From assembly GCF_003610195.1 (NCBI RefSeq), contig NZ_RAPO01000001.1:868001-932000 (forward strand): a stretch of DNA of 64,000 nucleotides, read 5' to 3'. The notes below the pieces were generated by a model. It saw only the letters and a list, made by a program, of their open reading frames with translations. It did no database searches and had not been told where the DNA came from. Below, one piece after another: positions 24,899-25,507 of this stretch (the first letter of the stretch is position 1; each line of letters starts with the position of its first letter). This DNA comes from Halopiger aswanensis (GTDB lineage: Archaea > Halobacteriota > Halobacteria > Halobacteriales > Natrialbaceae). The position numbers were made by a program, and so were the translations under genes.

Positions 24899-25060
24899 CG
24901 TTATCTCCACACGTGGCGAGTCGCCCGCGAAGGAAAGGGGCCGAGGCTGCGCTCGCCGGGCCACGGACTCGAGGCGTTCGCGTCTGCCGATCAGTTCGTC
25001 ACCTAGCTGTACGCGAGTTCCACGACCGAGTTCGAACACCGAACAGGACTCGAGTATCGA

Positions 25061-25083
25061 TGTGCGGGACCGGATTCGAACTA
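25061..25083 (-). repeat. tRNA-Leu 3'-end copy 1 (most diverged)
   Basis: Matches the T-arm plus acceptor 3' strand of tRNA-Leu(UAG) with one mismatch at 25063 and a different last few bases. Nearby bases 25027-25033 and 25046-25052 can pair, but the loop is unlike that of the other hairpins. Confidence 0.8.
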
Positions 25084-25186
25084 CGCGAAGACGTGCTCGC
25101 TCGCGGCTTCGCCGCTCGCAATCGCGGTCGCATAGCGACCGCGCTCTCGCTGCGCGCGTCTTCCTTCCGAAGGCACGGTGCAGAAC

Positions 25187-25214
25187 CTGCGGCTCGCGGA
25201 GTTGCTCGCCGCAG
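25187..25214 (-). other. Hairpin following tRNA-end copy 2
   Basis: CTGCGGC (25187-25193) pairs perfectly with GCCGCAG (25208-25214) around a 14-base loop. The loop differs at three positions from the loop of the next hairpin, while the stem has changed on both sides together. Confidence 0.75.
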
Positions 25215-25219
25215 AACCA

Positions 25220-25244
25220 TGCGCGGGACCGGATTCGAACCGCG
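25220..25244 (-). repeat. tRNA-Leu 3'-end copy 2
   Basis: Exact copy of the last 23 bases of tRNA-Leu(UAG), discriminator base included, continuing as CGCG. On the tRNA strand it is preceded by a GAGGAC/GTCCTC hairpin (25244-25249 with 25262-25267) where the variable arm would be. Confidence 0.9.
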
Positions 25245-25292
25245 AGGACTTCGCTCCGCTCGTCCTCTGGGCCGCGAATCCGGTCGACGATA

Positions 25293-25322
25293 CTCACGGC
25301 TCACGGAATTGTTCGCCGTGAG
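25293..25322 (-). other. Hairpin following tRNA-end copy 3
   Basis: CTCACGGC (25293-25300) pairs perfectly with GCCGTGAG (25315-25322), with a 14-base loop. It starts two bases after the copied tRNA end, the same distance as behind the true tRNA. Confidence 0.75.
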
Positions 25323-25324
25323 AA

Positions 25325-25349
25325 TGCGCGGGACCGGATTCGAACCGCG
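25325..25349 (-). repeat. tRNA-Leu 3'-end copy 3
   Basis: Exact copy of the tRNA-Leu(UAG) 3' 23 bases. It is preceded on the tRNA strand by a short GCAGC-gaa-GCTGC hairpin (about 25353-25365). Confidence 0.9.
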
Positions 25350-25392
25350 GTCGCAGCGAAGCTGCTCCCTGCTTCGAATCCTCGTCGCGATG

Positions 25393-25420
25393 CTTCTCCT
25401 CGCGTAATTGCTCGGAAAAA
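25393..25420 (-). other. Hairpin directly behind the true tRNA-Leu
   Basis: On the tRNA strand, UUUUUCC and GGAGAAG pair over seven positions if two G-U pairs are allowed, around the same type of 14-base loop. On the opposite strand the same arms would mismatch, so the structure suits RNA made from the tRNA strand. Confidence 0.6.
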
Positions 25421-25422
25421 CA

Positions 25423-25507
25423 TGCGCGGGACCGGATTCGAACCGGCGGACCCCTACGGGACAGCGTCCTAAGCGCTGCGCCGTTGGCCTAGCTTGGCTA
25501 CCCGCGC
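25423..25507 (-). tRNA. tRNA-Leu (anticodon UAG)
   Basis: 85 bases. The acceptor stem is GCGCGGG with CCCGCGC and discriminator A. The D-arm is GCC/GGC, and the anticodon stem CAGCG/CGCTG encloses the loop CTTAGGA with TAG at 25471-25469. A long class II variable arm (TCCC-GTA-GGGG) and the T-arm GCCGG-TTCGAAT-CCGGT complete it. The large variable arm and anticodon agree on leucine. No intron. CCA is not encoded. A TTCTTACTC box (25531-25539) precedes it. Confidence 0.97.

Follow-up and report, generated by a model that had tools for sequence, protein, structure and literature searches.

Gene-less structured modules bounded by copies of the tRNA 3′ end stand behind many tRNA genes of Halobacteria

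tRNA genes are the commonest landing sites of mobile DNA in prokaryotes. The tRNA-Leu(UAG) gene of the archaeon Halopiger aswanensis is followed by three copies of its own 3′ end and by a series of hairpins, and the question that the locus raises is whether such an array records repeated integration, selection on an RNA, or both. The window analyzed here is a stretch of 64,000 nucleotides (G000:C1:868001-932000, G000 being the H. aswanensis genome). An initial annotation had placed copies of the tRNA-Leu end at 25325, 25220, and 25061; these were recovered as the last 20 nt of the gene (T54 to A73), the third with one mismatch. Hairpins with the loops described there were found behind the tRNA and behind the first two copies. 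In all three the stems differ in sequence yet pair, and, as described, the hairpin behind tRNA-Leu requires U-G pairs when read on the tRNA strand.

The array consists of three modules arranged head-to-tail downstream of the minus-strand tRNA-Leu(UAG) gene (25507 to 25423). In the direction of the tRNA, each module runs in the order hairpin A, a short spacer, anti-T (a 7- to 9-nt reverse complement of the T-loop of the module’s own tRNA), palindrome B, and T copy (tRNA nt 54 to 73). The initial annotation lacked the T-loop reverse complement and each module’s second palindrome, and it did not record modules at other tRNAs. The features are as follows:

25423–25507, minus strand: tRNA-Leu(UAG) (ARAGORN; Rfam RF00005, 49.2 bits)
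25423–25442, minus strand: T54–A73 segment of tRNA-Leu
25391–25422, minus strand: module 1 hairpin A, core CGAGCAATTACGCGAG, U-G pairs in the stem (covariance-model match G000:C1:893388-893425)
25373–25381, minus strand: module 1 anti-T GGATTCGAA, reverse complement of the T-loop TTCGAATCC (family-wide anti-T test)
25345–25372, minus strand: module 1 palindrome B, 28-nt type, GCAGGGAGCAGCTTCGCTGCGACCGCGG (same type at other tRNAs)
25325–25344, minus strand: T copy 1 (tRNA nt 54 to 73)
25291–25324, minus strand: module 2 hairpin A, identical to the hairpin adjoining tRNA-Leu in Natrinema versiforme (L152)
25275–25283, minus strand: module 2 anti-T, shortened, CCGGATTCG
25240–25274, minus strand: module 2 palindrome B
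25220–25239, minus strand: T copy 2
about 25184–25219, minus strand: module 3 hairpin A, stem CTGCGGC/GCCGCAG at 25187–25214 (orthologous to the sole module of G001)
25081–25183, minus strand: module 3 palindrome B, enlarged in the window
25061–25080, minus strand: T copy 3, one mismatch

The anti-T of module 3 is degenerate in the window and intact in G001, a genome of the same genus. The flank after T copy 3 is common to G001 (88.8% over 680 nt), and T copy 3, which has no hairpin behind it, is the displaced original 3′ end of tRNA-Leu.

The array is not peculiar to tRNA-Leu. The same architecture is found behind many kinds of tRNA, in every genome surveyed behind about a third of the tRNA genes. 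When three genomes were scored for T-half copies 25 to 210 nt from the gene, 15 to 16 of 42 to 45 tRNAs per genome carried one downstream and 1 to 2 carried one in the same window upstream, a downstream excess well above chance. A covariance model of hairpin A was adopted for wider searches since the loop pattern alone, dropped as a genome search, matched far too many coding sites. The model gave 14 confident matches in the window genome and matches in 36 of 41 relatives. Of 145 genomes sampled across Halobacteria, 102 had matches, as did 22 of 197 genomes of a phylum sample; all 22 belong to class Halobacteria, and none was found outside it in that sample. These counts are lower bounds because the model misses most variants with an extra stem-loop inside the loop. 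Such variants stand in the window genome behind tRNA-Val-GAC, Ser-CGA, Arg-GCG, and Met (L242, L258, L264, and L255). All confident matches inspected in detail adjoin a tRNA 3′ end, whole or duplicated, and the examined matches begin 0 to 2 nt past the tRNA end or past a T copy. When 84,980 species genomes were scanned with an exact pattern, 91 stretches were returned. They cover more than 20 tRNA species, and almost all bear haloarchaeal titles, one being labeled only “Euryarchaeota.” The module family is specific to Halobacteria.

Across the family, 139 modules were parsed. They are noncoding and about 100 bp long, most with 78 to 158 nt between the tRNA end and the T copy, a length into which no gene fits, and no cargo-bearing modules were seen in this survey. 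The T copy starts sharply, with identity to its own tRNA of 0.33 at position −3 and 0.97 at T54, continuing through nt 73, and a constant CGTGG, CGCGG, or CGTAG comes before it. Both ends of the module are marked in this way, one by the restored tRNA 3′ end and the other by the displaced copy. The anti-T agrees with its own tRNA at 9.1 of 11 positions (6.5 in shuffled controls and 8.0 with other tRNAs) and follows the base at position 57 of that tRNA in 98% versus 60%. It pairs with the T copy and thereby closes palindrome B. In silico, pairing of the T copy with the module is 0.81 with the anti-T and 0.28 when it is scrambled, a clear effect of the anti-T, whereas any capture of the tRNA acceptor strand by the T copy hinges on the multiloop parameters of the equilibrium fold. 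Palindrome B falls into length classes near 28, 43, 51, and 60 nt, and many of its sequences recur at different tRNAs and in different genera with 90% identity or more.

Reduced forms also exist. At the tRNA-Gln loci L192, L219, and L183, only a 9-nt B separates the anti-T from the T copy, in tandem in L192, and in L156 (the same locus as L061) and L068 hairpin A is joined straight to a shortened T copy (AATCC...) with neither anti-T nor B.

Dispersed palindromic repeats or MITEs were ruled out, since one B type (the B51 pattern) has three matches in the whole window genome, each in a tRNA module, and the inspected confident hairpin A matches are likewise confined to tRNA ends. Carriage by viruses was also considered and dropped: viral contigs contained 51 loop and 125 B-like matches, none with the stem plus T-half context. 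The combined module pattern had no match in viral contigs, and the module pattern had none in phage records. The plasmid search returned one match, a megaplasmid copy of a tRNA-Gly locus, and apart from this locus no free or extrachromosomal attP form was found in viral contigs, phages, or plasmids. In Natronorubrum bangense (L203/L168), the tRNA-Gly locus with its modules is present on both the chromosome and an 828-kb plasmid, identical over the 900 bases compared. Natronorubrum thiooxidans (L193) has two tRNA-Gly(GCC) genes ~600 bp apart, each with its own module, which suggests that gene and module were duplicated together.

To compare loci with and without modules, G001 was surveyed tRNA by tRNA against the window genome. 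T-copy units are missing from both genomes at 19 of the 41 orthologous tRNAs. Unit number as called by the parser differs at 18 of the 41, a figure that includes decayed copies and, at tRNA-Glu, a parser effect rather than an insertion. At tRNA-Asp and tRNA-Tyr, the window genome from the T copy onward aligns to G001 from the T-half of the tRNA onward, with identities of 87.5% over 56 nt and then 90% over 208 nt, and of 75% over 64 nt. The flank past the last T copy is therefore the flank found directly past the module-less tRNA, and the modules are discrete insertion units. At the tRNA-Leu gene of the window, two extra modules lie between the tRNA and the one module common to G001, and one extra tRNA-proximal module each is present at tRNA-Val in the window genome and at tRNA-Arg and tRNA-His in G001. 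The loci of close relatives thus differ in complete modules, whose junctions fall on the first base of the T-loop, and to judge from these alignments the newest module would usually be the one adjoining the tRNA. Presence or absence by itself is compatible with gain or with loss through recombination between T copies. The initial annotation had set the hairpin against integration scars. That opposition did not survive the comparison, as the empty sites show insertions with a T54 junction and the hairpin inside the inserted unit.

Selection at the RNA level, which had also been proposed, is backed by covariation. The core of hairpin A, CGARCAANTCCGYGAG, has an outer stem, then a tandem G-A/G-A step that is symmetric, then two base pairs (RC/GY), and a loop of six bases, AANTCC. 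Of the cells in the first five copies, 95% were paired, and both sides had changed in 10 of 13 pairs. In an alignment of 107 distinct copies fitted to the model, 90.8% of cells pair, the covariation score is 0.577 compared to 0.20 in shuffles (all slid registers below 0.12), and double-change cells number 304 compared to 87.5. Many of these copies were gathered with a pattern that fixes the loop, and conservation of the loop is therefore in part an ascertainment effect, to which neither the stems nor the R-Y pair (GC 64, AT 61) is subject. Among the six pairs adjoining the core, G-U is commoner than A-C when read on the tRNA strand, 47:15 (p = 6e-5, not corrected for phylogeny), which indicates selection on the tRNA-sense strand. 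Two hairpin A copies within the 94%-identical repeats of locus L178 differ by two compensatory pairs. For both hairpin A and B, the sense fold beats the antisense fold (p about 1e-13), with mean fold z of −2.6 for A and −4.3 for B compared to −0.7 behind module-less tRNAs. A kink-turn identity was rejected, as the tandem G-A pairs lie in a symmetric loop lacking the three-base bulge. Judged from these substitution patterns, hairpin A is most likely conserved as a structure, in RNA rather than in DNA. Because module-less tRNAs evidently work without hairpin A, we only infer that it has an RNA function.

How modules arrive can be approached from their boundaries. Tyrosine recombinases integrate into tRNA genes with a crossover in the T-loop, as in mycobacteriophage Ms6 (PMC1762012), and tRNA-integrating genomic islands are collected in Islander (PMC4383910). 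The modules resemble such elements in that they rebuild the tRNA 3′ end, leave a displaced 3′ fragment at the far end, and have their boundary at the T-loop. They differ in being 78 to 158 nt long, gene-less, and structured throughout, and they contain a conserved RNA hairpin besides the inverted copy of the T-loop. With tRNA nt 54 to 73 standing at either end of the module, the tRNA is rebuilt and the original 3′ end is pushed downstream; restoration of nt 54 to 73 with a displaced copy is the pattern that a tyrosine-recombinase crossover in the T-loop produces, and in this respect the module behaves as a tRNA-rebuilding insertion. The reading toward which we lean, with modest confidence, is that modules insert site-specifically, restoring the tRNA 3′ end and giving it a structured trailer. 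Entry would be through site-specific recombination, with the crossover placed where the T-loop begins on its 5′ side and a putative tyrosine-recombinase-type enzyme acting in trans. The modules may persist because the tRNA is rebuilt and the hairpin A trailer stands in for the displaced native one. The T fraction is 0.31 behind module-less tRNAs, 0.26 behind last T copies, and 0.165 far away, and in the terminator T-run comparison it is 0.21 at 35 to 60 nt inside the module. Hairpin A, standing where the native T-rich tail was, could take over 3′ end formation or trailer handling, and anti-T with B may mask the leftover T copy in a read-through transcript. Several findings speak against this reading, among them the absence of modules from the viral and phage records searched and the five module-free integrase elements described below. 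A further one is the anti-T, an inverted copy derived from the target, since ordinary tyrosine integration generates nothing of the kind. To our knowledge, such copies are not a usual product of tyrosine integrases.

Integrase-bearing elements at module-bearing tRNAs bear on a related possibility, that modules are scars left by larger integrative elements. The attP of such elements would have contained a module together with the tRNA 3′ half, and later loss by recombination between T copies would leave tandem modules. We hold this to be less likely. Two elements of roughly 2 to 3.5 kb fit it, each lying between about 160-bp direct repeats, 93 to 94% identical, that span the tRNA 3′ half, hairpin A, anti-T, B, and T copy, that is, whole modules; recombination between the T copies of an element of this type would leave two modules in tandem. 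One, in Halovivax sp. KZCA124 (L177, minus strand, tRNA-Phe), is a decayed element with a broken tyrosine integrase between two complete modules, its direct repeats measuring about 165 bp. The other, in Natronolimnohabitans innermongolicus (L178, 560–3500, tRNA-Gly), is about 2 kb long, contains a TnpB-like fragment, and likewise lies between two modules. The left end of the L178 element, past the T copy, begins with another hairpin-A-like stem-loop. Repeat-mediated deletion involving partial tRNAs is, moreover, reported in Haloquadratum (PMC3119063). Against the scar model, five other integrase-bearing elements, roughly 10 to 35 kb and traced from the far end to their own tRNA, had no module or hairpin A in attL in any of the five cases: only the tRNA 3′ end was carried, element sequence lay directly behind the tRNA, and the old module was on the far side of the element. 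These elements were rejected as module carriers, and among the five no recombinase linked to modules was found. The model accounts for tandem arrays and for transfer, but not for the origin of a fixed-layout module with an anti-T to its own tRNA.

Integron cassette arrays grow at a fixed site, and their units terminate in an imperfect palindrome that has an inverted core on one side and a core on the other (attC). The anti-T/B/T copy of the module matches this layout, in layout only, and here too the newest unit would usually be at the fixed site. By analogy, one may conceive of an integron-like haloarchaeal system in which the tRNA gene would be the fixed site, the T-loop the core, and anti-T/B/T copy a folded single-strand site; a recombinase would add modules in order beside the tRNA, the anti-T would be rewritten for each tRNA, and hairpin A would come along as a passenger RNA and keep the tRNA functional. 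We offer this only tentatively. The integron core is GTTRRRY, in contrast to the module core, which follows the local tRNA (G/TTCRAATCC), and modules, unlike cassettes, have no open reading frame and do have hairpin A. Because the core differs and no gene is carried, we class the modules as tRNA-targeted insertions and keep the integron-like reading apart.

Spread by ordinary homologous recombination of tRNA loci, with no dedicated enzyme, appears unlikely. It would agree with the finding that 22 of the 23 hairpin A matches at at least 90% identity sit at the same tRNA, and with the sharing of the module 2 hairpin A with N. versiforme; however, exchange between orthologous loci cannot yield B sequences at least 90% identical across different tRNAs together with a locally matching anti-T and T copy. 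A vertically inherited cis-regulatory or processing element of tRNA genes, its repeats a by-product of slippage, is the least probable account, since the RNA-level covariation of hairpin A and its strict placement behind tRNAs would suit it but the empty sites at tRNA-Asp and tRNA-Tyr disfavor it, as do the 19 of 41 orthologous tRNAs bare in both genomes and the 18 at which the parser’s counts differ (some through decayed copies).

Among known tRNA-associated sequences, the Haloferax t-elements, or tRNA-like elements, named in PMC4946936 and PMC4326828 come close: like these, the modules are tRNA-derived haloarchaeal sequences that could meet tRNase Z. The T copy differs in having neither a 5′ acceptor strand nor a matching 5′ T-stem strand (the 5′ T-stem bases are at background identity), and therefore no minihelix forms. 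No Rfam 15 family matches hairpin A or the module. A description of these modules was not found in the open-access literature, which was the scope of our search, and the family seems unrecorded so far.

Under the favored reading of site-specific, tRNA-rebuilding insertion, roughly one tRNA gene in three, across the genomes surveyed from a single archaeal class, is followed by tiny gene-less structured insertions. The family ties an RNA-level feature, a covarying trailer hairpin, to a DNA insertion with sharp boundaries, and it is testable in culturable haloarchaea. The modules would account for many of the tRNA fragments in haloarchaeal genomes, and their arrays are a record of past insertions at essential genes.
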